Assembly (NCBI GenBank): GCA_945862135.1
Contig: CAMAYE010000004.1
Location: forward strand, 1-50,312
From: Bordetella parapertussis
GTDB taxonomy: Bacteria; Pseudomonadota; Gammaproteobacteria; Burkholderiales; SG8-41
Length of the DNA: 50,312 nt
Direction: 5' to 3'
Below are positions 26,893 through 40,510 of this stretch, one piece after another (positions within the stretch are counted from its first letter, which is position 1; every line of letters starts with the position of its first letter). A program made the position numbers and the translations under genes. The notes beneath the pieces are model-generated. The model was not told where the DNA came from. It made no database searches and saw nothing but the letters and a program-made list of their open reading frames with translations.

Positions 26893-26918
26893 CGCCGCGC
26901 TCAGCGCGCGGCGCTTTT
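26893..26918 (+). terminator. Possible terminator between convergent genes
   Basis: CGCCGCGC (26893-26900) pairs with GCGCGGCG (26906-26913) around TCAGC, then CTTTT. The T-tract is short. The hairpin overlaps the final codons of the convergent gntR gene, so sequence constraint by coding is an alternative explanation. Confidence 0.4.
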
Positions 26919-27659
26919 CCACAGGTCACTCAGATATTCGTGGTCAGCGGTATTGATCCAGCTGCGGCGGTATTCCACCGGGGTGTCGTTGTAGGTGTAG
27001 GCGACGCGGCGTATCTGCAGCGCGGGTTGGTCGATGCGCATACCGAGGATGGTCGCGATGTCCGCAGGTGGATGCGCAGCCGATAACCGTTCGCTGATAC
27101 GAACGACATTGACGCCGTACCGCGCCTGATACAGGCCGTAGATCGTGCCTTCTCGGTTGCGGAAGGTGGATTCGTCGAGACGCGAAAACCGTTCAGTCGG
27201 CACCGTGATGTCGTCCAGCACCACTGGTTTACCGGCGAGATTCAGCAGATTGCGCACCCGCGCCACGCGGCTGCCGCGGGCAAGTCCGAACTGGCTTTCG
27301 TCGTCGGCGTCAGCGCGTTCCTTGCGGAAGCCCAGCAGTTCGGAGACCGGGAATTCGCGGCTGCCGTCCTTACCGACGACATGGAAAAAATAAAACAGCG
27401 TGCGGTCTTCGGTGTGGCTTGCGACAAAGGTGCCGCGGCCCTGCTGGCGCACGAGGATGCGGCCGGCGACCAGTTCGTCAATCGCGCGGCGGATGGTGCC
27501 GATGGACACCTTGAACTGCCGCGCCAGTTGCGATTCGCTGGGGATGGCTTCGCCCGGCTTCCACTCGCCGGCGGCCAGTGCGCGGGTGATTTTCCATTGC
27601 ACTTCGCGGTAAAGCGGGGCGGCGACGAGGTTTTCGGTGATGAGGGCGGGGGTGTCCAT
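26901..27659 (-). CDS. GntR-family transcriptional regulator, HutC/UTRA subfamily
   Basis: The 252-residue product has an N-terminal GntR winged helix (PLYREVQWKITRALAAGEWK, IPSESQLARQFKVSIGTIRRAIDELVAGRIL, RQQGRGTFVA) and a C-terminal UTRA ligand-binding domain (about residues 90-245) ending with YRRSWINTADHEYL. HutC-type regulators usually repress a neighbouring catabolic operon until a pathway intermediate binds. It diverges from the SuyA-like gene and the run of catabolic genes behind it, so it is the likely local regulator. ATG 27659 is chosen; an in-frame ATG nine codons upstream is possible. Confidence 0.9.
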   Translation of the reverse strand: MDTPALITENLVAAPLYREVQWKITRALAAGEWKPGEAIPSESQLARQFKVSIGTIRRAIDELVAGRILVRQQGRGTFVASHTEDRTLFYFFHVVGKDGSREFPVSELLGFRKERADADDESQFGLARGSRVARVRNLLNLAGKPVVLDDITVPTERFSRLDESTFRNREGTIYGLYQARYGVNVVRISERLSAAHPPADIATILGMRIDQPALQIRRVAYTYNDTPVEYRRSWINTADHEYLSDLWKSAAR

Positions 27660-27695
27660 GGCAGCGCGCGGCAGTCTATCATGCACAACCCGGAT

Positions 27696-27730
27696 TCATA
27701 TAGGTCATATAGTTGACTGGCCGAAAGGCC
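27696..27730. promoter_or_regulatory. Candidate operator/promoter in the GntR-SuyA divergent spacer
   Basis: TCATATAG occurs twice in tandem (27696-27703 and 27705-27712, 9-bp period). TTGACT (27713-27718), a good -35, follows directly towards the SuyA-like gene, but no convincing -10 lies 17 bases further. GGCC-GAAA-GGCC (27719-27730) is a small perfect hairpin with a GNRA loop. The AT-rich tandem repeat is the best candidate for binding the adjacent GntR protein, although it is not an obvious HutC-type palindrome. Confidence 0.4.
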
Positions 27731-27807
27731 GGGGGTTAGCATCTCCGGCCCTGCACACCTGTTTTCATTCCGGTTGCATATCACCCCGCATTTATCCAGG
27801 AGGCGCA

Positions 27808-28089
27808 ATGATTCATTTGTTGGTACACGATAAAAAGGACACGGTCGGCGTGGCCGTCATCGAAGGCATCAAGGCCGGTCAGGAGATGGTTGGCTGGGTC
27901 ATGGAGGACGACTCCACGATCAAGGTCAAGGCGCTCAACGACATCCCGATCGGGCACAAGGCGGCGCTGCGCGAGATCAAGAAGGGCGACACCATCATCA
28001 AATACGGTTTTGACATCGGCAAGGCCGTCGCTGACATCAAGCTCGGCGAGCACGCCCACGTGCACAACATCAAAACCAAGCGTTGGTAA
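27808..28089 (+). CDS. suyA: SuyA-like small subunit (SAF domain) of a UxaA-family lyase
   Basis: The 93-residue product is a stand-alone SAF domain (about residues 15-90: VGVAVIEGIKAGQEMVGWVM, ALNDIPIGHKAALREIKKGD, YGFDIGKAVADIKLGEHAHV). In the UxaA/GarD family this domain is either fused to the catalytic part or, as in (2R)-sulfolactate sulfo-lyase, separate as SuyA. The latter enzyme splits 3-sulfolactate into pyruvate and sulfite. The adjoining gene is a SuyB-like large subunit. A perfect AGGAGG ribosome site precedes ATG 27808. The name rests on domain layout and remembered similarity, without a search; a sugar-acid dehydratase small subunit is the alternative. Confidence 0.7.
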   Translation: MIHLLVHDKKDTVGVAVIEGIKAGQEMVGWVMEDDSTIKVKALNDIPIGHKAALREIKKGDTIIKYGFDIGKAVADIKLGEHAHVHNIKTKRW

Positions 28090-28163
28090 AAGACGGTTTG
28101 TAAAAACTGGCTGCCAACCCGGCACGACCCCGAACCCGAATCCGATCCAAAACGGAGATACAA

Positions 28164-29333
28164 ATGATCGACAGCAAAACCACATTCATGGGCTACCGCC
28201 GCGAGAACGGTCGCGTTGGTGTCCGCAACCACGTCCTGATCCTGCCGGTGGACGATCTGTCCAACGCCGCCGCTGAAGCCGTGGCCAACAACATCAAGGG
28301 CGCAATTGCGATCCCGCATCCCTACGGCCGCCTGCAGTTCGGCGCCGACCTGGACCTGCATTTCCGTACCATCATCGGCGCGGGTGCCAACCCCAACGTC
28401 GCTGCCGTGGTGGTGATCTGCATTGAAGAAGGCTGGGCCAAAAAAGTGGTCGACGGCATTGCCAAGACCGGCAAGCCTGTCACCGGCTTCGGCATCGAAC
28501 TGCATGGCGACCACGACACCATCATGCGTGCGTCCAAAGTGGCCAAGGAATACGTGCAATGGGCGTCAGAACTGCAGCGCGTCGAGTGCCCGATCAGCGA
28601 CCTGTGGGTTTCGACCAAGTGCGGTGAGTCCGATACGACCTCGGGCTGCGGCTCCAACCCCACTGTCGGCAGCGCCTTCGACAAGCTCGAGCCGCTGGGC
28701 GTGACCATGTGTTTCGGTGAAACCACCGAAATCACCGGCGGCGAAAACATTGTTGCCGACCGCTGCGCAACCCCGGAAGTGCGCAAGGAATTCATGCGCA
28801 TGTTTGATCGTTACCAGGAAATCGTCGAGAAAAACAAAACCAGCGATCTTTCCGATTCGCAGCCGACCAAGGGCAATATCGCCGGCGGCCTGACCACGAT
28901 CGAGGAAAAAGCGCTGGGCAACATCCAGAAAATCGGCAAGAAGTGCAAGGTTATCGGCGTACTCGACAAGGCCGAAGAGCCGACCAAACCCGGCCTGTGG
29001 TTCATGGATTCGTCCTCTGCCGCGGCGGAAATGGTCACGCTGTGCGCAGCATCCGGTTATGTGGTGCACCTGTTCCCGACCGGCCAGGGCAATGTCATCG
29101 GCAATCCGATCGTGCCGGTGGTGAAACTGACGGCGAATCCGCGCACCGTGCGCACCATGAGCGAACACGTTGACTACGACTGCTCAGGCCTGTTGCAGCG
29201 CGAGAAGAACCTCGACCAGACCGGCGATGAGCTGATTGAAGTCATGCTGCGCACCTGCAACGGTCGCCTGACGGCCGCCGAAGCACTGGGCCATCGCGAG
29301 TTTGTGCTGACCCGCCTGTACGAAAGCGCTTAA
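28164..29333 (+). CDS. suyB: SuyB-like large subunit, probable (2R)-sulfolactate sulfo-lyase
   Basis: The 389-residue product is the catalytic half of a UxaA-family enzyme. It begins [20 protein letters not shown], typical of the family, and contains [19 protein letters not shown], where altronate and galactarate dehydratases as I know them read KCGGSDATSG. GESDTT together with the stretch [20 protein letters not shown] matches the SuyB branch as I remember it. SuyAB needs iron and releases sulfite from sulfolactate, leaving pyruvate. GGAG precedes the ATG by seven bases. No sulfite dehydrogenase or exporter is visible in the window, which is a gap in this reading. Other beta-eliminations remain possible. 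Confidence 0.72.
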
Positions 29334-29366
29334 ACCGACAGGCCGCTAGGGGTCCGTGATCGGGCT

Positions 29367-29424
29367 GCGATGCAGAGTGCTGCATAGCGGCCGTTCGCGG
29401 ATTCTGCGCGGCCGTTGTTTTTTT
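29367..29424 (+). terminator. Tandem hairpins with T-tract between suyB-like and ThDP enzyme genes
   Basis: First stem: ATGCAG (29370-29375) with CTGCAT (29380-29385), loop AGTG. Second: CGGCCG (29388-29393) with CGGCCG (29409-29414), extended by CGC/GCG inside, followed by TTGTTTTTTT (29415-29424). The second is a plausible intrinsic terminator or attenuator. It lies 20 bases before the next start codon, so expression of the downstream genes may be reduced relative to suyAB. Confidence 0.55.
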
Positions 29425-29444
29425 CTGAACGGAAGATTCTGTAC

Positions 29445-31100
29445 ATGACCTCAATGCGCGGCGCCGACATTCTGGCGCGTTCGTTGGCAGCAGCCGGATT
29501 GACCCGGGTATTTTCGCTGTCCGGCAATCACATCATGCCGATCTACGATGCGGCGATCGAAGCGAAGCTGGCCATTACCCACGTGCGTTACGAAGGCGCC
29601 GCTGTGCACATGGCTGACGCCTGGGCGCGCCTCACCGGCGAACCGGGGATTGTCATGCTTACCGGCGGCCCGGGGCACGCCAATGGTGTGGGTGCGCTGT
29701 ATACCGCCCTGGCTTCCGAATCACCGCTGGTGTTGCTGTCGGGACATGCGCCGCTGAACGAGCTCGGACGCGGATCATTCCAGGAAATGCGTCAGGCGGA
29801 TATCGCCGCGCCGCTGGTCAAGGCTTCATGGACTGCATCCAGCGCTGAATCGCTGGGTGCCGATATTGCCAAGGCCTGCCGCATCGCGCGATCCGGCCGG
29901 CCGGGACCGGTGCATCTCAGTTTGCCTTTTGACATTCTTGAGGCCAAAGTTGCTGACGGCGAACGCGCGATCGCGGCCGCCGCGCAATTTGCCCCCATGG
30001 AGCATGTACTGGAGAGTAAATCGGCAGCAGCACTGATGGCTTTGCTGCAATCGGCGGCACGGCCGCTGATTCTGCTGGGTCCGGTAATGTCGCATGCACC
30101 GGTTTCGACGCTGGTGAAACAGCTCGCTGACGCCACCGGAGTACCGGCGGTATGCATGGAGAGCCCGCGCGGGGTTAATGATCCGTCATTGGGCGCCTTT
30201 GCCGGCGTCTTGGCCAAGGCTGATCTGGTGGTACTGCTCGGCAAACAGCCTGATTTCACACTGAAATTCGGCAAAGCACCGGCAGTGGTGGCCGATTGCC
30301 GTTTTGCGGTGATTGATCCGGAAAGCGAAGTGCTGCAACGTTCGGTGAAAAATCTCGGTGCTGCGCGTGTTGTGCTGTCGGCTCAGGCGGATTCAGCGGC
30401 GGCTGTGCGCGCACTGATCAAAAACGCATCGCGTAAAGCGGATCAAGCCTGGTTTGACGAAGTGGCTGCGGCAGTGGCCTTTCGTCCGGTGGCATGGCGC
30501 GACATCAACAGTGGTGATGGCGGACCGGTGCATCCGGTTGAACTCGGGCGCGCGGTGCAGGAATTGCTTGTTGGCTCCCCGGATGCAGTGTTTGTTGCAG
30601 ACGGCGGCGAGATCGGCCAGTGGGCGCAGGCCTGCATCAGCGCGCCGACTCGCATCATCAATGGTCCGGGCGGCTCCATCGGCAGCGGTGTTCCGTTTGC
30701 TTTCGCGGCGTGCATGGCGCGCCCCAAGGCGCCGGTGGTTGCAGTGATGGGCGATGGCGCCTTTGGTTTTCATTTGATGGAGTTTGATACTGCTTCACGT
30801 TCCAAAGTGCCGATGGTCGTGGTGGTCGGCAACGATTCCTGCTGGAACGCGGAACACCAGATCCAGTTGCGTACCTACGGCAAGGATCGTGCGCACGGTT
30901 GCGAACTGGCCAGCGGCACGCGTTATGATCTGGCGGTGGCGGCGCTGGGTGGCCATGGTGAGCTGGTAACCCGTGCAGCAGAACTGAGACCGGCGCTGCA
31001 GCGTGCAATTGCCAGCGGCAAACCCGCCTGCGTCAACGTGATGATTCAGTGCCTGCCTGCACCAACGGTGACGGCGGCAACTACGGGTGGCGCACACTAA
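29445..31100 (+). CDS. Thiamine-diphosphate-dependent enzyme, acetolactate-synthase-like
   Basis: The 551-residue protein has the three-domain ThDP fold: an N-terminal Pyr domain with the catalytic glutamate Glu50 (HVRYEGAAVHMADAWARL), a central FAD/Rossmann-like domain (about 190-335), and a C-terminal PP domain with GDG at 436-438 and the matching Asn in VVGNDSCWNAEHQIQL. The reaction is not evident. The family includes carboligases, 2-oxo-acid decarboxylases, oxalyl-CoA decarboxylases and sulfopyruvate decarboxylases. Beside SuyAB, a 2-oxo-acid decarboxylase for a sulfonated or C4 oxo-acid is an attractive guess. ATG 29445 follows GGAAG; an in-frame ATG ten codons earlier lies in the terminator tract. 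Confidence 0.85.
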   Translation: MTSMRGADILARSLAAAGLTRVFSLSGNHIMPIYDAAIEAKLAITHVRYEGAAVHMADAWARLTGEPGIVMLTGGPGHANGVGALYTALASESPLVLLSGHAPLNELGRGSFQEMRQADIAAPLVKASWTASSAESLGADIAKACRIARSGRPGPVHLSLPFDILEAKVADGERAIAAAAQFAPMEHVLESKSAAALMALLQSAARPLILLGPVMSHAPVSTLVKQLADATGVPAVCMESPRGVNDPSLGAFAGVLAKADLVVLLGKQPDFTLKFGKAPAVVADCRFAVIDPESEVLQRSVKNLGAARVVLSAQADSAAAVRALIKNASRKADQAWFDEVAAAVAFRPVAWRDINSGDGGPVHPVELGRAVQELLVGSPDAVFVADGGEIGQWAQACISAPTRIINGPGGSIGSGVPFAFAACMARPKAPVVAVMGDGAFGFHLMEFDTASRSKVPMVVVVGNDSCWNAEHQIQLRTYGKDRAHGCELASGTRYDLAVAALGGHGELVTRAAELRPALQRAIASGKPACVNVMIQCLPAPTVTAATTGGAH

Positions 31101-31122
31101 AAGAGTCTTACGGAAACGGTTT

Positions 31123-31836
31123 ATGGAAAATCTTCAGGTCAGAATCTGGCGCGGCAAAGAGAACGGCGGCTTCCAGGAATTCGAGGTGCCGCGGCAGGAA
31201 AGCCAGACCGTGCTCGATGTGGTCACCTATGTGCAGCGCAAATGTGATCCGACGCTGTCCTATCGTTTTGCCTGCCGTGTCGGTGTTTGCGGCTCCTGTG
31301 CGATGACGGTCAACGGCGTATCGCGCTGGACCTGTCGCACCCATGTCGACAAGGTGGCTGACGAAAACAAGGTTGAGATCGCGCCGTTGCGCAATCTGCC
31401 GGTGATCAAGGATCTGGTCACCGACATGAGTGAGTTTTTCGACAAGTGGGCCAAAGCGCGTGGCCGGTTTACCGGCAGCACAACCCGCAAGGATGAGTTT
31501 GCGCAAGTCTCCCCGGAATCGAAAGAGCGCAAGCGTGTCGATGCCGGCATTGAGTGCATCGGCTGCGGGGTCTGCTACAGCGCCTGCGACGTTGTCACCT
31601 GGAACAAGGATTATCTCGGACCGGCGGCGCTCAATCGTGCATGGACACTGGTCAACGACGTGCGTGATACCGCACGCGCGGAACGTCTGGCTGCAGTGGC
31701 CGGTGATGCCGGTTGCCATGCCTGCCACACGCATCTGAATTGCACGGAGCGTTGTCCCAAGGGTTTGTCGCCGACCGCCGGTATTGCCGGGTTGAAGCGC
31801 GCGGTGCTTGCGGCCACGTTGTCAGGTGAGATATAA
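31123..31836 (+). CDS. SdhB/FrdB-like iron-sulfur subunit
   Basis: The 237-residue product is a succinate dehydrogenase/fumarate reductase-type iron-sulfur protein. All three cluster motifs are present: [2Fe-2S] CRVGVCGSCAM with a later Cys in SRWTC; [4Fe-4S] CIGCGVCYSAC; and the third cluster in CHACHTHLNCTERCPKG. It passes electrons from a flavoprotein to membrane haem or quinone. ATG 31123 is chosen because ENLQVRIWRG is the usual start; an upstream in-frame ATG lies in the ThDP gene. The two membrane subunits follow, but the flavoprotein is 4.1 kb downstream after four other genes. Probably a second, specialised complex rather than the main respiratory one. Confidence 0.92.
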   Translation: MENLQVRIWRGKENGGFQEFEVPRQESQTVLDVVTYVQRKCDPTLSYRFACRVGVCGSCAMTVNGVSRWTCRTHVDKVADENKVEIAPLRNLPVIKDLVTDMSEFFDKWAKARGRFTGSTTRKDEFAQVSPESKERKRVDAGIECIGCGVCYSACDVVTWNKDYLGPAALNRAWTLVNDVRDTARAERLAAVAGDAGCHACHTHLNCTERCPKGLSPTAGIAGLKRAVLAATLSGEI

Positions 31837-31852
31837 AATATTAATAAATATG

Positions 31853-31872
31853 TTTAAAAACAATAATTTATA
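31853..31872 (+). repeat. Dispersed AT-rich element, copy 3
   Basis: This copy lies in the 62-base spacer between the SdhB-like gene and the first membrane-subunit gene and is embedded in a run of about 45 bases that is almost entirely A/T. TGTTT-AA-AAACA (31851-31862) forms a short inverted repeat. See 12649. Confidence 0.6.
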
Positions 31873-31898
31873 TATTTATCCGGAAGGGGCTGCTGCTC

Positions 31899-32246
31899 AT
31901 GAGCCGGCGTAGCGAAGTGCTCCTTTGGGGGGCGCAACGGATCAGCGCGATGGCGCTCGCGGTGTGTGTCGTCGTGCATCTGATCACGATGATCTATGCA
32001 GTGCGCAGCGGACTGAGCGGTGCGGAGATTCTCGGGCGTACGCAAGGTAACGTCGGCTGGTTCATGTTCTATGCCGTTTTTGTTGCCGCTGTTTCAGTAC
32101 ATGCGCCGATCGGCCTGCGCACCATACTTGCTGAAACCTTCAATTGGCGCGGTCAAGGTGCCAATGTGTTTGCAGCGATCGTCGGCTTGAGTCTGGCGAT
32201 GTGGGGCCTGCGTGCGGTAATGGCGGTATTCGGCGGGGCGCCTTGA
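31899..32246 (+). CDS. SDH-type membrane subunit 1 (SdhC-like)
   Basis: A 115-residue protein with three membrane segments (about 12-33, 54-75 and 89-110). Segment 1 holds QRISAMALAVCVVVHLI (His27) and segment 2 SVHAPIGLRTIL (His68). Both patterns resemble those of SdhC (RVSG...H and H-x3-G-x-R), so this seems to be a divergent paralogue of the next gene rather than a classical SdhD. It should help bind haem b and quinone. The stop overlaps the next ATG by one base (TGATG). Confidence 0.8.
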   Translation: MSRRSEVLLWGAQRISAMALAVCVVVHLITMIYAVRSGLSGAEILGRTQGNVGWFMFYAVFVAAVSVHAPIGLRTILAETFNWRGQGANVFAAIVGLSLAMWGLRAVMAVFGGAP

Positions 32247-32593
32247 TGAAAAACGATTTTCGCGCGCGCAATCATCCTGCATATTGGGCTTTTATCGTTC
32301 ACCGTGTGTCAGGCCTGCTGCTGACGTTCTTCCTGCCTTTGCATTTCTGGGCGCTGGGCCAGGCTTTTCATGGTGCGACCGGACTCGATCGTTTTCTCGA
32401 ATGGACGCAGAACCCGCTGGTGAAATTTGCCGAAACCGGCCTGGTATTGCTGCTGTCCGCGCACATGGCTGGCGGCGTGCGTCTGCTGATGATGGAGTTT
32501 CTGGACTGGCGTGAATGGCAAAAGACGTTGCTCGCGATCGCGGTCGGCGTATCGCTTGTGGCCATGCTGGCTTTCCTTTTGAATCTGGTCTGA
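32246..32593 (+). CDS. SDH cytochrome b-type membrane subunit 2 (SdhC-like)
   Basis: A 115-residue protein with the SdhC signature HPAYWAFIVHRVSGLLL at the start, PLHFWAL (His33) in the first membrane segment, and SAHMAGGVRLLMMEF (His73) in the second, followed by a third segment (about 92-113). His73 aligns with the haem ligand of SdhC. Together with the preceding subunit and the SdhB-like protein it forms a membrane-anchored electron-transfer module. It is translationally coupled to the preceding gene. The sulfatase gene follows 29 bases later. Confidence 0.87.
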   Translation: MKNDFRARNHPAYWAFIVHRVSGLLLTFFLPLHFWALGQAFHGATGLDRFLEWTQNPLVKFAETGLVLLLSAHMAGGVRLLMMEFLDWREWQKTLLAIAVGVSLVAMLAFLLNLV

Positions 32594-32622
32594 TTGCCTT
32601 AATCCGTACGGGGTGCATTCAA

Positions 32623-34032
32623 ATGAAAAAGAGCAAACCGAAGAAGCCGAATATCCTGTTGATCCTGGTGGATGACCTGCGCTTCGATGAATTCGGCGCC
32701 GGCGGCCACCCTTACATGAAAACGCCGAATATCGACCGGATTGCCCACGAAGGCGTGATGTTTGATCGCGCATTTCATACCACGTCGATCTGCTCACCCA
32801 ACCGCGCCTCGATACTGACCGGGCAATACGCCAGCCGCCACGGCATCATCGACAACGTTGCGCGCGACCTGGCCAGCCATCGTCTGCCGAACTATCACCT
32901 TGAACTGCAACGCCTCGGATACGAAACCGCACACATCGGTAAATGGCATATGGGCAACGACGGCAAGCCGCGTCCCGGTTATGATTTCTGGGTGGCCTAT
33001 GACGGCCACGGCAATCTCTACGATCCCAAGCTAAACGAAAACGGCAAATACGTACAGCACAAGGGCTATGTCACCGACATCATGAATACGATGGCGGTTG
33101 ACTGGATCAAGAGCAAAAGCCGGCGCAAGGGGAAAAACGCCGACAAGCCGTGGTCGCTGTGGTTTGCCCACAAGGCGGTGCATCCGGATGCCGAGCAGGC
33201 CGCTGATGGGTCCTTCCGCATGGACGGCTACCGTCCGGCCAAGCGCCACGAAAATCTTTACAAGGGCTGCATATTCCCGAAGAAGCCGAATATGCAGAAA
33301 CCCACCGAGTTCCTCAAGCACAAGCCGGTGTGGGCGGAAGCGGTGGAACTGCGCAAGACCGAAGCCTCGAAAATCATGCATGACGCCATTCACTCCGGCA
33401 AACAGGAGGAGATTCGCCTGCGTGCGGCGATGATGGCGGCAGTGGATGAAGGTGTCGGCATGTTGTTCAAGGCGCTGGAGGAAACCGGCGAACTCGACAA
33501 CACGGTAATCCTCTTCCTCGGCGACAACGGCTACTTTTTCGGCGAGCACGGGCTCGGACCCGAGCGTCGATTCCCCTATGAGGAAGGTATTCGCGCCCCG
33601 CTGACCATACGCTGGCCGAAATTGATCCAAGCCGGCAAGCGGGTGAACGACCTGGTGATTTTGCAGGACATCGCCCCGACGCTGCTTGAAATTGCCGGCG
33701 GGAAACCCGGAGAGCATATTCAGGGGCATTCACTGCTGCCGGTGATTCGCGGCAAGCGTGCCGGCTGGCGCAAGTCATTCCTTGTTGAATACTGGGCTGA
33801 GAATGCCTATCCGTGGCTGGTCGGCATGAGTTTCAGGGCCATTCGTACCGGTCGCTATAAATACATTCACTGGGTCAATCGTGCACGTAATGGCGAGCTT
33901 GATGAGTTGTATGACCTGGAGAAGGATCCTTACGAGTTGATCAACGTGGCAAAGAAACCGGCTTACGCGGCAGTGCGCAAAAAAATGACCCGGGAACTGC
34001 GTGTGCTGGCCGCAGAGGCATTGGGGCTTTAA
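32623..34032 (+). CDS. Sulfatase-family hydrolase, Cys-type (formylglycine)
   Basis: The 469-residue product belongs to the type I sulfatases. Metal-binding Asp17 and Asp18 lie in ILLILVDDLR. The catalytic motif C-S-P-N-R at 57-61 followed by ASILTG fits the CxPxR signature in which the Cys becomes formylglycine. HIGKWHMG and FLGDNGYFFGEHGL carry further active-site residues. There is no signal peptide, so the enzyme should be cytoplasmic, unlike many sulfatases. Likely reaction: hydrolysis of a sulfate ester, though phosphonate or phosphate diesters also occur in the family. No formylglycine-generating enzyme is encoded in the window. It lies between the membrane subunits and the first Bug receptor. 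Confidence 0.88.
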   Translation: MKKSKPKKPNILLILVDDLRFDEFGAGGHPYMKTPNIDRIAHEGVMFDRAFHTTSICSPNRASILTGQYASRHGIIDNVARDLASHRLPNYHLELQRLGYETAHIGKWHMGNDGKPRPGYDFWVAYDGHGNLYDPKLNENGKYVQHKGYVTDIMNTMAVDWIKSKSRRKGKNADKPWSLWFAHKAVHPDAEQAADGSFRMDGYRPAKRHENLYKGCIFPKKPNMQKPTEFLKHKPVWAEAVELRKTEASKIMHDAIHSGKQEEIRLRAAMMAAVDEGVGMLFKALEETGELDNTVILFLGDNGYFFGEHGLGPERRFPYEEGIRAPLTIRWPKLIQAGKRVNDLVILQDIAPTLLEIAGGKPGEHIQGHSLLPVIRGKRAGWRKSFLVEYWAENAYPWLVGMSFRAIRTGRYKYIHWVNRARNGELDELYDLEKDPYELINVAKKPAYAAVRKKMTRELRVLAAEALGL

Positions 34033-34134
34033 CGCAAGCAGGGCGTCGCTTGCTCCCCCCGGGTGCGTCGGGTATCGTGATCCACGGGTTCGTTCGCAGG
34101 GTAGCCAACAACAACACCAGAGCGTGAGGAGAAA

Positions 34135-35100
34135 ATGATGAGCAAAGCAGGAATGATCGCCGCGGCATGCATGCTTGCCGCATCCACCGTGTTTGCTGCG
34201 GACGTTTATCCCAACCGTCCGGTGCGCATCGTTGTGCCGTTCCCGCCCGGCGGGGCCACCGATATCGTGGCGCGTCTTGCTGCACAGAAGCTCAACGAGG
34301 CATGGGGCCAGACCATGGTTGTCGACAACCGCGCCGGCGCCGGCGGCAACATTGGCGGTGAACTGGCAGCAAAATCCAATCCCGACGGCTATACGTTATT
34401 CATGACATCCGGATCCATCGTCACCGCTAATCAGCACATGTACGCGAAAATGCCGTTCAACCCGGAGAAAGACCTTGTTGCAGTAACCAACGTTGCCAGC
34501 GGGCCGCAGGCCATTGTCGTCAACCCGAGTAATCCGGCGAAAACGCTGAAGGAATTCATCGCGATGGCCAAGTCCAAACCGAAGTCGATGACTTTCGGGT
34601 CAGCTGGCGTCGGCACTCAGACCCATCTGGCGGCTGAGAACTTCATCTACACCGCAGGCATCGACGTGACTCACGTACCGTATAAAGGCGAAGGCCCTGC
34701 CATCAGCGATCTGGTTGGTGGGCAAATCCAGTTTGTTACCCCCAATCTGTCTGCCGCAATCAGCTTTGTTGGATCAGGCAAGCTGCGTGCGCTGGCGGTC
34801 ACCAGCAAGGAGCGTTCTCCGCAACTGCCGAACGTGCCGGCGGTTGCTGAGACGCTGCCCGGATTCGAGAACCTTGGCTGGTTCGGCTTCATGGTGCCGA
34901 CCGGCACACCGAAAGCTGTGATCGACAAGGTGCATGCTGATACGGTGAAAGCGCTCGGCTCCGCGGATTTCCGAAAGCGGCTGACTGAAATCGGCATGGT
35001 GCCAGTTGGTAACACTCCCGCCGAGTTCACCAAGGCGATCAAGGCCGAATCGTTGATGTGGGCGAAGATCATCAAGGAACGTAATCTGCAGGTGAAGTAA
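34135..35100 (+). CDS. Bug/TctC family periplasmic solute receptor 1
   Basis: The 321-residue protein has a signal peptide (cleaved after VFA near residue 22) and the Bug-family fold: YPNRPVRIVVPFPPGGATDIVAR, VVDNRAGAGGNIGGELAAKS, PDGYTLFM, and FGSAGVGTQTHLAAE. Such receptors bind carboxylates in a pincer of main-chain amides and water, and serve tripartite tricarboxylate transporters. No TctA or TctB membrane gene is in the window. It precedes the fumarase-like genes in the same direction, which suggests a dicarboxylate ligand. GAGGAG ribosome site; ATG 34135 or 34138. Confidence 0.93.
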   Translation: MMSKAGMIAAACMLAASTVFAADVYPNRPVRIVVPFPPGGATDIVARLAAQKLNEAWGQTMVVDNRAGAGGNIGGELAAKSNPDGYTLFMTSGSIVTANQHMYAKMPFNPEKDLVAVTNVASGPQAIVVNPSNPAKTLKEFIAMAKSKPKSMTFGSAGVGTQTHLAAENFIYTAGIDVTHVPYKGEGPAISDLVGGQIQFVTPNLSAAISFVGSGKLRALAVTSKERSPQLPNVPAVAETLPGFENLGWFGFMVPTGTPKAVIDKVHADTVKALGSADFRKRLTEIGMVPVGNTPAEFTKAIKAESLMWAKIIKERNLQVK

Positions 35101-35183
35101 CGCAACGATCACGGGAGCCGGCCTGCGCGGGCGCAATGCCCGGCACCGGCCCCCGGGTTTTACATTCAAGCGAAGGTGCATCT

Positions 35184-36059
35184 GTGAAGGTCGATCCCAA
35201 ACAAGTGGAAGAAGCGTGCAAGGAACTGTATATCCGCGCGCTCAAAATGTTGCCGCCGGACATCAAACAGGGTTTTCAGCAGCTTGATCGCGCTGAAACC
35301 AATGCTACCGGCAAAGCCATCCTCGGCACGATGATCCGCAACATCAAGGTGGCGGAGGACAATACCAACCTGTTGTGCCAGGACACCGGTATTCCGATTT
35401 ATAACGTGGTGATTGGGAGCGGCATTGAGTTTGACGGTCATGCGCTGAAGCAGGCGATCGTCAGCGGCTGCACCCGCGCGACCCAGGAGCATCCGCTGCG
35501 TTCATCGGTGGTTCATCCGACCACGCGCAAGAATCTTCATACCTCCGGCGGTCGTCATGTGCCGGTGATCAATATCGATTTTTCGTCGCAGGCCGAGACG
35601 CTGTCGATCGAGATGATCCCCAAAGGCTCGGGCTCGGAGAACAATTCCTGGCTGAAAATGGCAATACCTGCCGACGGCATCGACGCGATCAAGACCTTTG
35701 TCATTGACTGCGTGCTGGAAGCCGGAGGCAAGAGTTGCCCGCCGGTGATTGTCGGCGTCGGCGTCGGTGGTACGGCAGACCTTTGCGTGCACCTGTCGAA
35801 AGTCGCAGCGACCCGGCCACTGGGCAGCCAATGCGCAGATCCCGAGGGCGCGAAGCTTGAGGCCGAACTCAGCGCCGTGGTCAACAAGCTGGGTGTCGGT
35901 GCGCAAGGCCTCGGCGGCGATTCCACGGCATTTGCAGTGCATGTCGAGACTGCTGCCACACACATCACGATGAATCCCGTTGCGGTCAACATGCAGTGCC
36001 ATTCGGCACGGCGCGCGCGGGCGACTTTCACGCCGCAAGGCCTCAGTTACGGTTACTGA
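35184..36059 (+). CDS. Class I fumarase / L(+)-tartrate dehydratase, alpha subunit
   Basis: The 291-residue product is the [4Fe-4S] alpha part of a two-subunit hydro-lyase. The three cluster cysteines are Cys65 (LLCQDTGIP), Cys185 (GGKSCPPVIVGVGVGG) and Cys272 (NMQCHSARRA). Also typical are HPTTRKN and PKGSGSENNSW. The enzyme adds or removes water across a fumarate-like double bond. Specificity for fumarate, tartrate or a substituted analogue cannot be told from the sequence. GTG 35184 preceded by GAAGG gives the conserved N-terminus. It is followed by the beta subunit 15 bases later, and by the SdhA-like gene. Confidence 0.92.
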   Translation: MKVDPKQVEEACKELYIRALKMLPPDIKQGFQQLDRAETNATGKAILGTMIRNIKVAEDNTNLLCQDTGIPIYNVVIGSGIEFDGHALKQAIVSGCTRATQEHPLRSSVVHPTTRKNLHTSGGRHVPVINIDFSSQAETLSIEMIPKGSGSENNSWLKMAIPADGIDAIKTFVIDCVLEAGGKSCPPVIVGVGVGGTADLCVHLSKVAATRPLGSQCADPEGAKLEAELSAVVNKLGVGAQGLGGDSTAFAVHVETAATHITMNPVAVNMQCHSARRARATFTPQGLSYGY

Positions 36060-36074
36060 TCGACGGATACAGAC

Positions 36075-36686
36075 ATGGCGCATTACGAACTCAATATGCC
36101 GGTGACGGAGGAGCAGGTCCGCAAACTGCGCATCAACGATACCGTCACCCTGCATCAGACGCTGTACGGCATTCGCGATGCCACGCAGATTCACATGTTC
36201 GACCATGGGCGTAAGACGCGTTTCGACCTGAACGGACATGCGGTGGTGCATACCGCACCCAATGTCAAATGGGTAGGTGAAACCAAAGCACATCCTTCGG
36301 GCTATGCGCCGATCTGCATCGGCACCACCACCAGTGCTCGCATGGAGCGCTTTACCCGCCCGCTGATGGAGCAATACGGCGTGCGCATCATCATCGGCAA
36401 GGGCGGATTGTTTGCGGCTTCAGCCAAGGCTTTCTCCGATATCGGCGGCGTTTATCTGGCGATCATCGGTGGCACCGCGGCGCTGGAAACGACCTGGATC
36501 GAACAGATCGAAGAGGTTGATCTCGACGACCTCAATCCAGAATCGCTGTGGAAATTCCGCATCAAGGGCTTCGGCCCGTTGCTGGTCGCGATGGATTCCC
36601 ATGGCGGCAGTCTTTATACCGCAGTTAACGCGGCTGCCAAGGACCAGCGTGCCGGCGTACTTGCGGCCCTCGGCGTCAAAAGTTAA
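36075..36686 (+). CDS. Class I fumarase / L(+)-tartrate dehydratase, beta subunit
   Basis: The 203-residue beta subunit matches the C-terminal domain of class I fumarases. Recognisable blocks are RDATQIHMFDHG, HTAPNVKW-like region, SGYAPICIGTTTSARMER (swivelling domain), IIGKGGLFAAS, and YLAIIGGTAALETTWIEQIE. It pairs with the alpha subunit to form the substrate pocket. The stop is six bases before the ATG of the SdhA-like gene, a tight arrangement that links hydration with succinate-type oxidation. Confidence 0.92.
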   Translation: MAHYELNMPVTEEQVRKLRINDTVTLHQTLYGIRDATQIHMFDHGRKTRFDLNGHAVVHTAPNVKWVGETKAHPSGYAPICIGTTTSARMERFTRPLMEQYGVRIIIGKGGLFAASAKAFSDIGGVYLAIIGGTAALETTWIEQIEEVDLDDLNPESLWKFRIKGFGPLLVAMDSHGGSLYTAVNAAAKDQRAGVLAALGVKS

Positions 36687-36692
36687 AACCTC

Positions 36693-38408
36693 ATGAAAAC
36701 CATCAAGACCGACATTCTTATTCTTGGCTCCGGCGGCGCCGGCCTGTTTGCTGCGCTGCATGCCCATCAGCACAACCCTGAACTGTCGATCACCGTTGCG
36801 GTGAAAGGCCTGCTCGGGAAAAGCGGCTGCACGCGCATGGTACAGGGCGGCTACAACGTGGCGCTTGCCGAAGGCGATTCCGTCGAGCGTCATTTCATGG
36901 ACACCATCGAAGGCGGCAAGTGGCTGCCCGACCAGGATCTGGCGTGGACGCTGGTTGAAACCGCGGTCGAGCGTATTCATGAGCTGGAAAACGAACTCGG
37001 CTGTTTCTTCGACCGCAATCCCGACGGCACGATCCACCAGAAGGCTTTTGCCGGACAGACTTTTGATCGTACCGTGCACAAGGGTGACCTGACCGGCATC
37101 GAAATCATCAACCGCCTCGCCGAACAGGTGTGGGCGCGCGGCATCAACCGGCTGGAAGAACATCGCGCCGTCGAGTTCATCAAGAACAAGGACGGTTCTG
37201 CGGTTTCCGGCGTGCTGATGATCGATATGCGCAGCGGCGAGTTCACCTTCGTGCAGGCGCAGGCGGTGCTGCTGGCCACTGGTGGTGGCCCGACGATGTA
37301 CAAATACCACACGCCTTCCGGCGACAAGAGTTGCGACGGCATGGCGATGGCGATGCGCGCGGGGCTGCAACTGCGCGACATGGAGATGGTGCAGTTCCAC
37401 CCGACCGGACTGATTGCCGGCATGGACACACGCATCACCGGTACCATCATTGAGGAAGGCCTGCGCGGCGCCGGCGGTTATCTGCTCAACGGCGACGGCG
37501 ATCGCTTCATGCACAAATATGATCCGCGTAACGAGCGTGCGACGCGCGACATCGTCAGCCGCGGCATGTTCGAGGAAATGCGCGCCGGACGCGTGGGCCC
37601 GCGCGGAGGCCTCTACATCACCATGCGCCATCTCGATCCGGTGATGGTGCGCAAGGAATTCAAGGGCATGGTCGAGCGCTGCGCCGACTGCGGTTTTGAT
37701 CTGGTCGGAGGACTCGCCGACGTGGTGCCGACGGCGCATTACATGATGGGCGGCGTGGTGTTCAAAACCGACTGCACCACCGATCTGCATGGTTTGTTCG
37801 TTGCGGGTGAGGATTCGGGCGGCGTTCATGGCGCCAACCGCCTCGGTGGCAACGGCGTTGCCAATTCCACGGTGTTCGGTGGTATCGCCGGCGACGTGAT
37901 GCCTGGCTGGATCAAGGCCAATGGCGAGTTTCGCGCGCCGGACCAAGAGGCGATTGATGCCGCGGTGGCCCGTTGCCAGGCGCCGTTGTCGCGCAAGGGT
38001 GGTGACATGAACGCCATTCGCGAGCAGCTTTACAACGTGATGTGGGATGACGTCGGTATAGTCCGCGATGCCGCCTCTTTGGAGCGGGCTGAGGGGCAGC
38101 TCGATGATCTTGATGCGCAGCTTGATGCAGTCGGCATCAACGGTTCAACGCTGGCATTCAATTTGACCTGGCACGACTGGCTCAATTTGAAGAACCTCGT
38201 CATGGTGTCGAAGTCGATCCGCTTCGCGGCGATGGCCCGTGAGGATTCGCGCGGCGCGCACTTCCGCGCCGACCACCCGGATGTGCGCGATCTTGAGAAC
38301 TCGCGTTACACCTGTGTCGGCTGGAAGGATGGGCGTTTCAACATTGAAACGCGGCCGGTCAAATTCACCCGGGTCAAGCCTGGCGAGTCGCTGCTGACAG
38401 CAAGCTGA
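36693..38408 (+). CDS. SdhA/FrdA-like flavoprotein without the FAD-linking histidine
   Basis: The 571-residue product has the Rossmann FAD motif ILGSGGAGLFAALHA and the catalytic segments of succinate dehydrogenase/fumarate reductase: MVQFHPTGLI, GAGGYLLNGDGDRFM, ERATRDIVSRG (active-site Arg), VPTAHYMMGG and HGANRLGGN. In SdhA/FrdA the covalent flavin is held by His in RSHT-x-x-x-QGG. Here the segment is KSGCTRMVQGG, with Cys46 at that place. In E. coli fumarate reductase, loss of this His leaves fumarate reduction but abolishes succinate oxidation. So this protein may bind FAD loosely, use another substrate, or run reductively. Its partners are presumably the SdhB-like and membrane subunits at 31123-32593. 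Confidence 0.88.
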   Translation: MKTIKTDILILGSGGAGLFAALHAHQHNPELSITVAVKGLLGKSGCTRMVQGGYNVALAEGDSVERHFMDTIEGGKWLPDQDLAWTLVETAVERIHELENELGCFFDRNPDGTIHQKAFAGQTFDRTVHKGDLTGIEIINRLAEQVWARGINRLEEHRAVEFIKNKDGSAVSGVLMIDMRSGEFTFVQAQAVLLATGGGPTMYKYHTPSGDKSCDGMAMAMRAGLQLRDMEMVQFHPTGLIAGMDTRITGTIIEEGLRGAGGYLLNGDGDRFMHKYDPRNERATRDIVSRGMFEEMRAGRVGPRGGLYITMRHLDPVMVRKEFKGMVERCADCGFDLVGGLADVVPTAHYMMGGVVFKTDCTTDLHGLFVAGEDSGGVHGANRLGGNGVANSTVFGGIAGDVMPGWIKANGEFRAPDQEAIDAAVARCQAPLSRKGGDMNAIREQLYNVMWDDVGIVRDAASLERAEGQLDDLDAQLDAVGINGSTLAFNLTWHDWLNLKNLVMVSKSIRFAAMAREDSRGAHFRADHPDVRDLENSRYTCVGWKDGRFNIETRPVKFTRVKPGESLLTAS

Positions 38409-38508
38409 TTCCGCATCAGCATCTGCTGTTTGATTTTTCCGGGCTGGCGGGGGAGACTGCCGGTCCGGTCTTCCCGTACATACATAACATCTGCTTGGAG
38501 GAAAAATC

Positions 38509-39492
38509 ATGGATCGCTCCATTTTTCTTGGCATCACGCTTGCGACTGCGACTTTCGGCGGCATATTTGCTATGGCCTCAACCGCGGCAGCCCAGGAATT
38601 TCCGACGCGCAGCATTCGCATGGTGCTCCCATTTCCTGCTGGCGGCGGCAGTGATCTGGTGGCGCGCATCATTGCGCAGAAATTTTCGCAGCAGCTGGGG
38701 CAGCAGGTGGTTGTCGACAACCGTGCCGGCGCCAGCGGCAACATCGCGGCAGACATCGTCGCCAAGGCGCCGGGCGACGGCTATACGGTGTTTTTTGCAA
38801 ATTCCTCGATAACGATCAGCCCCGCGATCTACAAAAAACTGAGCTTTGACCCGGTCAGGGACTTTGCCCCGATATCGATGGCATCCTCTTATCCTTTTGC
38901 TCTGGTTGCGCATCCCGCGCTGCCGGTAAAAAGCGTCAAGGATCTGGTGGCGCTTGCCAAGGGCAAGCCGAACTCGCTCGATTATTCTTCGGCCGGCACC
39001 GGCACCATGTCACACATGGCAATGGAAATGCTCCGGGTCAAAACCGGTACCCGCATCACCCACCTTCCGTACAAGGGCGCAGCACCGGCAACGGTCGCGC
39101 TGCTCACCGGCGAATCCCAGGCGGCCTTTGTGGTGATGCCGGTGGCCGCGCCGCATATCCGCAACAACCGCCTGCGTGGTCTCGCTGTCGCCGACAAGGT
39201 GCGGTCGAAGGTTGTTCCGGAAGTGCCGACCATGGAAGAAGCCGGCGTCCAAGGTCATCTTGCCGTTCAGTGGAACGGTCTGTTTGTGCCGGTGAAAACG
39301 CCGCAGGCGGTGCAGGACAGGCTGTACAAGGAATGGGTTGCCTCGGTGAAGTCGCCAGAAGTGGTGCAGCGCATCCGCGCCGAGGGCGCGGAACCCAGCG
39401 GCAACACACCGGCGGAATTTGCGGCGTTTTTCAAGGCCGAGACTGCGAAGTGGGCGGATGTGGCGAAGCAATCCGGCACCAAGGTCGACTGA
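38509..39492 (+). CDS. Bug/TctC family periplasmic solute receptor 2
   Basis: The 327-residue receptor has a signal peptide (cleaved after AAA near residue 28) and the family pattern FPTRSIRMVLPFPAGGGSDL, VVDNRAGASGNIAADIVAK, GDGYTVFF and SSAGTGTMSHMAMEML. It is clearly divergent from receptor 1 at 34135, so it probably binds a different ligand or is a second affinity version. GGAGG ribosome site. The dehydrogenase gene follows after only four bases, so the two are cotranscribed. Confidence 0.93.
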   Translation: MDRSIFLGITLATATFGGIFAMASTAAAQEFPTRSIRMVLPFPAGGGSDLVARIIAQKFSQQLGQQVVVDNRAGASGNIAADIVAKAPGDGYTVFFANSSITISPAIYKKLSFDPVRDFAPISMASSYPFALVAHPALPVKSVKDLVALAKGKPNSLDYSSAGTGTMSHMAMEMLRVKTGTRITHLPYKGAAPATVALLTGESQAAFVVMPVAAPHIRNNRLRGLAVADKVRSKVVPEVPTMEEAGVQGHLAVQWNGLFVPVKTPQAVQDRLYKEWVASVKSPEVVQRIRAEGAEPSGNTPAEFAAFFKAETAKWADVAKQSGTKVD

Positions 39493-39496
39493 TCTC

Positions 39497-40510
39497 ATGC
39501 TAGTACTAGCGATTGCCGAATTGACCGAACTTGCCGCGCGGGCGCTGAAGCGTGCGGGCGCGTCGAAATCCATGGCTGAGGCGACCGCACAGGCCTTGGT
39601 TGCAGCCGAAGCGGAGGGACTGTCAGGCCACGGCCTGTCGCGCGTTGCGCTCTATGCCCAGCATCTGCGCGAAGGCCGTGCCGATGGCAAAGCCAAACCC
39701 AAAGTCATTCGCAAGAACGGCGCTACCTGCCTGATCGACGCCGGCGGTGGGCTGGCGTTTCCTGCAGCGGCCCTTGCGGTCAATGAAGCGATCAAACGCG
39801 CCAAAAAATACGGTGTCGCTTTTGTCGGCATCACCAACAGCCATCATTTTGGCGCCGCGGCGTATCACCTCGCCGCGATTGCCGATGCCGGGATGACCGG
39901 TATTGCGCTGACCAACTCCCCGTCGGCGATCAATGCCTGGGGCGGCAGCAAGGCCTTTTTCGGCACCAATCCGATCGCGGCGATTTTTCCGCGCAAGAAT
40001 GCACAGCCGATTGTTGTTGATCTGTCGCTGACCGAAGTGACGCGCGGCAAGATCATGCTCTATGCCAAGGAAAACAAGCCGATTCCGCTGGGCTGGGCAG
40101 TCGATCGCGATGGCAATCCGACGACCAGCGCGCAGGCTGCACTGACCGGCAGTCTGACGGCGATCGGCGGCGTCAAAGGCACCGCATTGGCGTTGATGGT
40201 CGAGGCGTTATGTGTTGCGCTCACTGGCGCTGCTTTGAGCTGCGAAAACGATTCGTACTTCGAACCCGGCAACAAGCCGCGCATCGGCCACGCGCTGATC
40301 GTCATCAATCCCGATGCGCTGGCCGGAGCCGATGTTTATTTCTCGCGCATCGAGGACATGGTTGGGCACATGCTCGGCGATGCCGGCGTACGTTTGCCGG
40401 GCGCAAGGCGCCATCAGGCGGTGGCGAAGGCGCAGGCCGAAGGCATCAGCCTGGCGGATACGTTGCATCAGGAGTTGCTGAAACTCGCCGGGCGCAGCCG
40501 CAAGAAGTGA
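39497..40510 (+). CDS. LDH2/MDH2-family NAD(P)-dependent 2-hydroxyacid dehydrogenase
   Basis: The 337-residue protein belongs to the family of MDH2-type malate, L-lactate, ureidoglycolate and (R)-sulfolactate (ComC) dehydrogenases. Typical blocks are AEAEGLSGHGLSRV at the N-terminus, TNSHHFGAAAYHL (catalytic His), FFGTNPIAAIFP, PLGWAVDRDGNPTTSA and IGGVKGTALALMVE. The reaction is reversible oxidation of a 2-hydroxyacid to a 2-oxoacid. With SuyAB in the same island, a ComC-like (R)-sulfolactate dehydrogenase is one reading; with the fumarase and SDH-like genes, malate or a substituted malate is the other. ATG 39497 gives the family N-terminus and has no strong ribosome site, so coupling to the Bug gene is likely. 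Confidence 0.88.
   Translation: MLVLAIAELTELAARALKRAGASKSMAEATAQALVAAEAEGLSGHGLSRVALYAQHLREGRADGKAKPKVIRKNGATCLIDAGGGLAFPAAALAVNEAIKRAKKYGVAFVGITNSHHFGAAAYHLAAIADAGMTGIALTNSPSAINAWGGSKAFFGTNPIAAIFPRKNAQPIVVDLSLTEVTRGKIMLYAKENKPIPLGWAVDRDGNPTTSAQAALTGSLTAIGGVKGTALALMVEALCVALTGAALSCENDSYFEPGNKPRIGHALIVINPDALAGADVYFSRIEDMVGHMLGDAGVRLPGARRHQAVAKAQAEGISLADTLHQELLKLAGRSRKK

Follow-up and report, generated by a model that had tools for sequence, protein, structure and literature searches.

A complex II-like and fumarase-like gene module joined to SuyAB in Burkholderiales: candidate genes for the breakdown of 3-sulfopropanoate

Introduction

Which compound is broken down by the enzymes encoded between positions 26,901 and 40,510 of contig CAMAYE010000004.1? 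This stretch of 50,312 nucleotides (assembly GCA_945862135.1, filed under Bordetella parapertussis; the whole stretch is termed the window in what follows) holds an island in which genes for a SuyAB-like sulfolactate sulfo-lyase stand together with genes for an SdhBCDA-like complex, a FumAB-like hydratase and an LDH2-family dehydrogenase. We are highly confident that the island serves organosulfonate catabolism, and its gene content and sequences make 3-sulfopropanoate (3-sulfopropionate) the probable substrate, which would be broken down aerobically. What was observed here is which genes are present, their synteny and co-occurrence, and an active-site signature that the orthologs share; from these we infer every substrate, product and stereochemistry that is proposed.

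SuyB and the SdhA-like protein occur together

In a sample of 399 genomes of the order, SuyB orthologs (at least 70% identity) were found in 72 genomes and orthologs of the SdhA-like protein (at least 65% identity, E ≤ 1e-150) in 51. SuyB was present in 50 of the 51 SdhA-positive genomes and in 22 of the 348 others (Fisher p = 5.7e-45). As related genomes are not independent, the count was also made by genus, where SuyB is found in 24/24 SdhA-positive genera and in 7/134 others (Fisher test). The contig of the sole SuyB-negative exception (G211, locus L168) begins at SdhB, so that the SuyAB side is cut off, and in one of the 22 genomes with SuyB only (G382) a contig ends in a fragment of SdhA (L043), which falls below the threshold.

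A search for the same gene set in other Burkholderiales, suggested as a check by an earlier reading of the sequence alone (the sequence-only reading), shows it to be syntenic in many genera, and because of this recurrence the gene set is far from chance. Forty stretches of the order were examined, 37 around SuyB orthologs and three around more distant copies (L069-L071). SuyB is present in 39 of them, GntR and LDH2 in 30 each, SdhB and FumA in 22 each, FumB in 21, SdhA in 20, an SlcC-like D-2-hydroxyacid dehydrogenase in 17, a thiamine diphosphate (ThDP)-dependent enzyme in nine and a sulfatase in six. In about half of these stretches SdhBCD-(Bug)-FumAB-SdhA is attached to a SuyAB-LDH2(-SlcC) module that resembles the known sulfolactate set. 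Six compact clusters (L050, L061, L101-L104), probably one close group, consist of GntR, SuyA, SuyB, a SorA-like gene, SdhBCD, Bug, FumAB and SdhA; they contain no ThDP enzyme, sulfatase or SlcC, and at most a 28-31% relative of LDH2. The ThDP enzyme and the sulfatase, being absent from these clusters, are therefore not core components.

Several metagenome bins titled Bordetella parapertussis (L088, L089, L092, L094) also carry the island, and look like mislabelled environmental bins.

Genes of the island

The open reading frame check found the 14 genes of the island open and intact. Thirteen of them, from SuyA to LDH2, read in one direction (27808..40510), with a divergent GntR gene on the minus strand upstream, which is the gene list that the sequence-only reading had given. 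The family names used there agree with Pfam and NCBIfam models, that of Bug protein 1 being based on sequence and homologs alone. The features are:

26901..27686, minus strand: GntR/HutC-type regulator, reading away from the operon (matches to NCBIfam HutC/PhnF models fall below cut-off)
27808..28089, plus strand: SuyA-like small subunit, 93 amino acids (place ahead of SuyB; GarD N-terminal match)
28164..29333, plus strand: SuyB-like (R)-sulfolactate sulfo-lyase large subunit (PF04295 and PF20629)
29445..31100, plus strand: ThDP-dependent lyase/decarboxylase, an optional part (ThDP N, M and C domains)
31123..31836, plus strand: SdhB-like iron-sulfur subunit (Fer2_3, Fer4)
31899..32246, plus strand: SdhC/D-like membrane anchor 1 (PF01127, Sdh_cyt)
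32246..32593, plus strand: SdhC/D-like membrane anchor 2 (PF01127, Sdh_cyt), with an HRVSG motif, which we take to be quinone-site-like
32623..34032, plus strand: sulfatase with a CSPNR motif, accessory (PF00884; present in few relatives)
34135..35100, plus strand: Bug/TctC-type periplasmic binding protein 1 (sequence; homologs at the same place in many loci)
35184..36059, plus strand: alpha subunit of a FumA-like hydratase, proposed to act on 3-sulfoacrylate (PF05681; NF004885)
36075..36686, plus strand: FumB-like hydratase beta subunit (PF05683)
36693..38408, plus strand: SdhA-like flavoprotein, proposed 3-sulfopropanoate dehydrogenase (PF00890, FAD_binding_2, and PF02910, Succ_DH_flav_C)
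38509..39492, plus strand: Bug/TctC-type periplasmic binding protein 2 (PF03401, TctC)
39497..40510, plus strand: LDH2-family dehydrogenase, ComC-like (PF02615, Ldh_2)

The starts given for SdhB (31123), the sulfatase (32623), FumA (35184, a GTG codon) and LDH2 (39497) are likely better ones. The GntR gene is kept beside SuyA in many relatives; a search for its operator between 27600 and 27830 returned weak inverted repeats only. The ThDP enzyme is possibly a sulfopyruvate decarboxylase.

SuyAB and the sulfolactate set

Sulfolactate degradation, as set out in the sources available for Chromohalobacter, Paracoccus and Cupriavidus, combines SuyAB with SlcC and ComC. The island likewise has SuyAB and a ComC-like LDH2, and SlcC in part of its relatives as well as sulfite export are further common points; unlike that set, the window has no SlcC and adds SdhBCDA-FumAB, which lie outside it. 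The available part of a review describes SuyAB as an Fe(II) (R)-sulfolactate sulfolyase, present in C. pinatubonensis JMP134.

SuyB of the window matches the GarD/UxaA second and C-terminal domains (PF04295, 109.9 bits; PF20629, 289.8 bits) and shares 82% identity with SuyB from the hpsN-hpsO-suyAB cluster of C. pinatubonensis HN-2. This identity to a protein of a dihydroxypropanesulfonate/sulfolactate cluster argues for sulfolactate itself as the substrate, and SuyAB of the island is a putative (R)-sulfolactate sulfo-lyase, with pyruvate and sulfite as its predicted products. SuyA matches the N-terminus of the GarD model only (30 bits), and the Pfam search, SAF included, gave no match for it. 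In the order sample, SuyB orthologs are at least 73% identical, with a few second copies at 63-67%, and GarD/UxaA-like matches reach at most 40%; by this gap, and by the 82% identity to a SuyB, a role of the UxaA-type enzyme on sugar acids was rejected. In two loci (L122, Massilia solisilvae; L141, Caballeronia arvi) two SuyAB copies are present, one on each side of the module.

A changed complex II and a fumarase-like partner

As in complex II (SdhABCD/FrdABCD), the four subunits are complete in the island: a flavin adenine dinucleotide (FAD) subunit, an iron-sulfur subunit and two membrane anchors. Elsewhere in the same genome lie genes for two further flavoproteins of the complex II type, which have the usual RSHT motif and are 34-35% identical to the island SdhA; the island SdhA is therefore an extra copy. 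Its sequence was aligned with FrdA and the paralogs of its own genome, and a signature was derived from 19 SdhA-like orthologs, six plasmid proteins and one RHA1 protein. The substrate-site residues H236, R285, H349 and R383 are kept, as in complex II, and invariant in the 19 orthologs; we take R285 to be the catalytic Arg and the other three to belong to the dicarboxylate site. The protein differs from complex II in three respects: the covalent-FAD His is absent, SGCTRMVQGG standing in place of RSHT with Gly-Cys at residues 45-46 of the window protein; there is a short insertion ending in TG (TRxTG, with K for R in one protein and A for T in RHA1); and Glu254 replaces Thr244 of FrdA, being invariant in the 19 orthologs and found also in the plasmid and RHA1 proteins. 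This changed FAD-link and substrate-site signature is common to three bacterial lineages, and speaks for one common, changed substrate.

FumA passes the NCBIfam model NF004885 (297.5 bits, cut-off 276). The FumAB pair shares domain families and the split into two subunits with class I two-subunit fumarase and L(+)-tartrate dehydratase; in contrast to these, its genes are kept beside the SdhA-like gene, and its role on the substrate proposed here is putative. In four loci (L038, 10637-11227; L041; L042; L043) a gene for a secreted-looking protein of about 150-200 amino acids lies between FumA and FumB.

Proposed route from 3-sulfopropanoate

The shortest chemistry uniting dehydrogenation, hydration and sulfolactate cleavage starts at 3-sulfopropanoate, from which sulfolactate would be two steps away, and it is the simplest one. 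A Bug protein would help in the uptake of 3-sulfopropanoate. The SdhABCD-like complex would remove two hydrogens from this succinate analogue, giving 3-sulfoacrylate, the analogue of fumarate, and would pass the electrons to quinone; the FumAB-like hydratase would then add water, giving 3-sulfolactate, the analogue of malate. If the stereochemistry of L-malate formation is kept, hydration of sulfoacrylate would by our reasoning from the Cahn-Ingold-Prelog rules give (R)-sulfolactate, the form that SuyAB would split into pyruvate and sulfite. LDH2 might link sulfolactate and sulfopyruvate as a side entry or, alternatively, serve stereo-correction together with SlcC where an SlcC gene is present. 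The sulfite would be exported or oxidized by enzymes that are encoded elsewhere in the genome.

The module in named genomes and plasmids

Searching named genomes with the SdhA alignment gave at least 576 stretches with a relative, of which the best 80 loci were taken; 46 of these 80, each of at least 19 kb, are referred to as long loci, the marker thresholds being our own. The long loci contain FumAB (41), SuyB (29), LDH2 (28), a TauE-type exporter (22), a ThDP enzyme (16), SlcC (12), a sulfatase (9), Xsc (3), HpsN (3) and sulfite dehydrogenase (2), and YeiH was found in none of them. At least one sulfonate marker (SuyB, TauE, SlcC, Xsc, HpsN or sulfite dehydrogenase) is present in 41 of the 46. 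The three long loci with Xsc (L113, L118, L140) are titled Alphaproteobacteria (Rhodospirillaceae or Magnetovibrio), and the protein of L113 passes the Xsc model.

Several loci, annotated plasmids among them, bring these genes close together. In Methylobacterium radiotolerans JCM 2831 some 16 kb contain the module together with ThDP, TauE, SuyAB, DctA, Ldh, GntR and an SlcC-like gene. In Paracoccus versutus UW1 the module is accompanied by YeiH, TauE, Ldh and an SlcC-like gene, and the same stretch of about 34 kb carries SuyAB, sulfite oxidase and a gene named hisD, taken as HpsN-like. The sole marker in Paracoccus seriniphilus is a YeiH gene about 7 kb off. A distant form of the module (SdhA 51%) is present in Rhodococcus jostii RHA1, where a SuyB-like gene (63%) occurs within the same 41 kb. 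Downstream of SdhA in Pseudorhizobium, at a distance of 8-11 kb, are genes for a succinate-semialdehyde dehydrogenase and a sulfolactaldehyde-reductase-like protein (324 bits, cut-off 348), and homologs are found within those 41 kb of RHA1; such genes would suit the formation of 3-sulfopropanoate from its alcohol or aldehyde.

These neighbourhoods bear on the idea that the Sdh/Fum substrate is a non-sulfonated substituted C4/C5 dicarboxylate (e.g., methyl- or hydroxy-succinate), with SuyAB as a chance neighbour or a sugar-acid enzyme. Complex II and class I fumarase paralogs handle many dicarboxylates, some long loci are free of any sulfonate marker (5/46), and the module has genes for aconitase X (AcnX) as neighbours in L129, L140 and L179 (6117-7762). 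This reading is nevertheless very unlikely: SuyB accompanies SdhA in 50 of 51 genomes, its orthologs stand well apart from GarD/UxaA-like proteins, as given above, and TauE, YeiH, SorA/SoxC, Xsc or HpsN genes occur beside the module in distant lineages, even where SuyAB is not nearby.

In four stretches without SuyAB, from M. nodulans, Pseudomonas MPC6, Sulfitobacter THAF37 and Pseudorhizobium NT-26, sulfite exporter genes accompany the module, joined in M. nodulans and Pseudomonas MPC6 by sulfite dehydrogenase genes; in Sulfitobacter S190 the module stretch has no marker of the sulfite-exporter or sulfite-dehydrogenase type. For SuyAB-free clusters with the gene order SdhBCD-SdhA-FumA-FumB (type II), it could be proposed that 3-sulfopropanoate is still the substrate but FumAB hydrates the sulfonated carbon, the product yielding malonate semialdehyde and sulfite, and that a coenzyme A-acylating semialdehyde dehydrogenase follows. 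This would agree with the genes for sulfite export (and, twice, for sulfite dehydrogenase) in such stretches, with a TIGR01722 gene (over cut-off) directly after FumB in Pseudomonas MPC6, and with homologs of this dehydrogenase (64% and 61%) in L166 and L178, some 3 kb away from SdhB. We consider it unlikely, as only three such loci were found, none of them among the 46 long loci, as SuyAB is encoded on another contig of the genome of L166, and as the six SuyB-negative genomes tested are all Xsc-positive; nor does it apply to the window, which has SuyAB. More broadly, the Sdh-type complex and the fumarase paralogues would be a sulfonate copy of the succinate-fumarate-malate arm, spread over proteobacteria and Rhodococcus and serving as an aerobic sink of 3-sulfopropionate; that in a SuyAB-free version of it the fumarase paralogue itself breaks the carbon-sulfur bond is a long shot.

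Sulfosuccinate as an alternative substrate

The sequence-only reading had assigned the island to organosulfonate catabolism, in which a succinate-like acid would be dehydrogenated and hydrated on its way to SuyAB, and this much is well supported by the near-constant presence of SuyB in SdhA-positive genomes (50/51). Its example of sulfosuccinate, degraded in five to six steps, is not the best fit, given that the ThDP enzyme and the sulfatase occur in 16 and nine of the 46 long loci and that the compact clusters lack both. In that scheme sulfosuccinate would pass through sulfofumarate, sulfomalate, sulfo-oxaloacetate and sulfopyruvate to sulfolactate, on which SuyAB would then act; alternatively, SuyAB would split sulfomalate to oxaloacetate and sulfite. 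The same enzyme classes fit this scheme, and LDH2, found in 52 of the 59 SdhA-positive genomes (51 of the order and eight from outside it; ortholog threshold E < 1e-70), could perform both of its redox steps. Bug receptors, moreover, often bind di- or tricarboxylates. We hold sulfosuccinate to be doubtful: apart from the patchy distribution of the ThDP enzyme and sulfatase genes, the 82% identity of SuyB to a protein of a dihydroxypropanesulfonate/sulfolactate cluster speaks against it, and the gene set is widespread, whereas sulfosuccinate is mainly synthetic. A literature search, with most subscription papers outside its coverage, returned no described pathway genes for it. What could be consulted of a review (PMC5445686) deals, as regards sulfosuccinate, with biodegradability only. 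As LDH2 is kept in 50 of the 51 SdhA-positive genomes of the order, the island may yet follow a route that uses it, that from sulfosuccinate included.

A route through mercaptosuccinate was set aside, as SuyAB would have no place in it; the dioxygenase gene was not among the things searched for in the loci. According to the portion of PMC5373536 at hand, mercaptosuccinate dioxygenase forms sulfinosuccinate, which breaks up spontaneously.

Coming back to LDH2 of the window, its best NCBIfam model is that of L-sulfolactate dehydrogenase (NF040650, ComC), with 210 bits and thus below the cut-off of 500. Two genomes with compact clusters (G181 and G012; L050 and L061) have an LDH2 ortholog of 59-60% elsewhere. 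A match to SlcC of at least 50% identity was found in 20 of the 59 SdhA-positive genomes, some of which are drafts, and SlcC was on this ground rejected as a needed part.

Sulfite disposal and desulfonation outside the order

That the window has no gene for sulfite oxidation or export, no TctAB membrane genes and a sulfatase without a place in the scheme had been pointed out from its sequence as weak points, and all three hold. In related genomes the cluster contains or adjoins genes for sulfite export or sulfite dehydrogenase. In the genome of the window, but outside the window, the cut-offs are passed by one PF00174 gene and by seven TauE genes; as these are broad families, present in 9/14 (PF00174) and 14/14 (TauE) control genomes, such matches say little. 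The same genome encodes an Xsc (sulfoacetaldehyde acetyltransferase) over cut-off (G000:C83:11904-13469, L210), and may use other sulfonates too.

In a sample of the phylum, 11 of 398 genomes were SdhA-positive, three in the order and eight outside. Among these eight, SuyB orthologs were found in two, Xsc over cut-off in seven and one or the other in all eight; the comparison for the figure of 7/8 is with 14 control genomes, in none of which Xsc was over cut-off. A check for cysteate lyase (TIGR01275) gave no protein over cut-off in nine genomes, a result that we regard as uninformative.

Observations that weigh against 3-sulfopropanoate

Several observations count against the route from 3-sulfopropanoate. 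With regard to the enzymes, the SdhA-like signature cannot tell 3-sulfopropanoate from sulfosuccinate, and the fit of the loss of the FAD-linking His and of the change from Thr244 to Glu to a sulfonate is presumed. LDH2 orthologs, so widely kept (52/59; 50/51 in the order), are superfluous in the simplest route, in which the ThDP enzyme and the sulfatase have no role either. The absence of SlcC in 39 of the 59 genomes would become relevant if (S)-sulfolactate were the product of the hydratase.

With regard to distribution, five long loci (L105, L119, L125, L129, L147) have no sulfonate marker. Semialdehyde dehydrogenases are found in none of the 46, and a sulfolactaldehyde-reductase-like gene in one. 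FumAB was not found in five long loci (L106, L108, L125, L129, L140), only two of which, L129 (6147-7810) and L140, have AcnX genes; because FumAB was not found in these two, AcnX may replace the hydratase there. For L106, L108 and L125, a span of about 10 kb gave no match to FumAB and none to AcnX. Finally, SuyB was not found in six of the eight SdhA-positive genomes outside the order. All six being Xsc-positive, another route from sulfolactate is possible in them, but it must be assumed.

3-Sulfopropanoate in the literature

The accessible text of PMC11489063 (2024) reports that Enterococcus gilvus makes 3-sulfopropionate from sulfoquinovose and dihydroxypropanesulfonate and that other bacteria make it from homotaurine. 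It also cites the formation of 3-sulfopropanoate by C. necator H16 and a thesis in which Roseovarius nubinhibens uses homotaurine via 3-sulfopropionate, sulfoacrylate and sulfolactate. Bacterial degradation of 3-sulfopropionate is called previously unreported in that text, where Bilophila is shown to use the compound as an electron acceptor; the mechanism is called unclear in the part of PMC12890257 (2026) that was available. Paracoccus pantotrophus NKNCYSA is reported as a homotaurine degrader in the excerpt of PMC12421959 that was covered.

The intermediates proposed for the island are identical to those of the Roseovarius route. The genes of its sulfoacrylate steps are unnamed in the accessible text of PMC11489063, and the island offers candidates for them. 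Our literature search, with most subscription papers outside its coverage, found no gene named for the degradation of 3-sulfopropionate, and the island seems to be a candidate gene set for a route for which the literature searched describes no genes. A candidate aerobic enzyme set, present in 51/399 genomes of the order and beyond, makes the 3-sulfopropionate gap in the organic sulfur cycle testable; if the proposal is true, it would add a new substrate class for complex II and fumarase paralogues.

Other genes next to the module

Two further families recur next to the fumarase genes. In type II clusters a gene of the Amidohydro_2 family adjoins FumB (L073, 14685-15524, where the model was tested; L166, L169, L170, L178). 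A small gene of the NIPSNAP family recurs near fumarase and sulfate/sulfite exporter genes (L074, 16135-16461; L076, L077, L202). The last of these loci is located on plasmid pPAN3 of Paracoccus pantotrophus DSM 11072 (L202:13768-17900), where matches to FumAB, YeiH and NIPSNAP were found and none to SdhBCD; the DNA that it shares with P. versutus begins within the module, and the cluster looks truncated.

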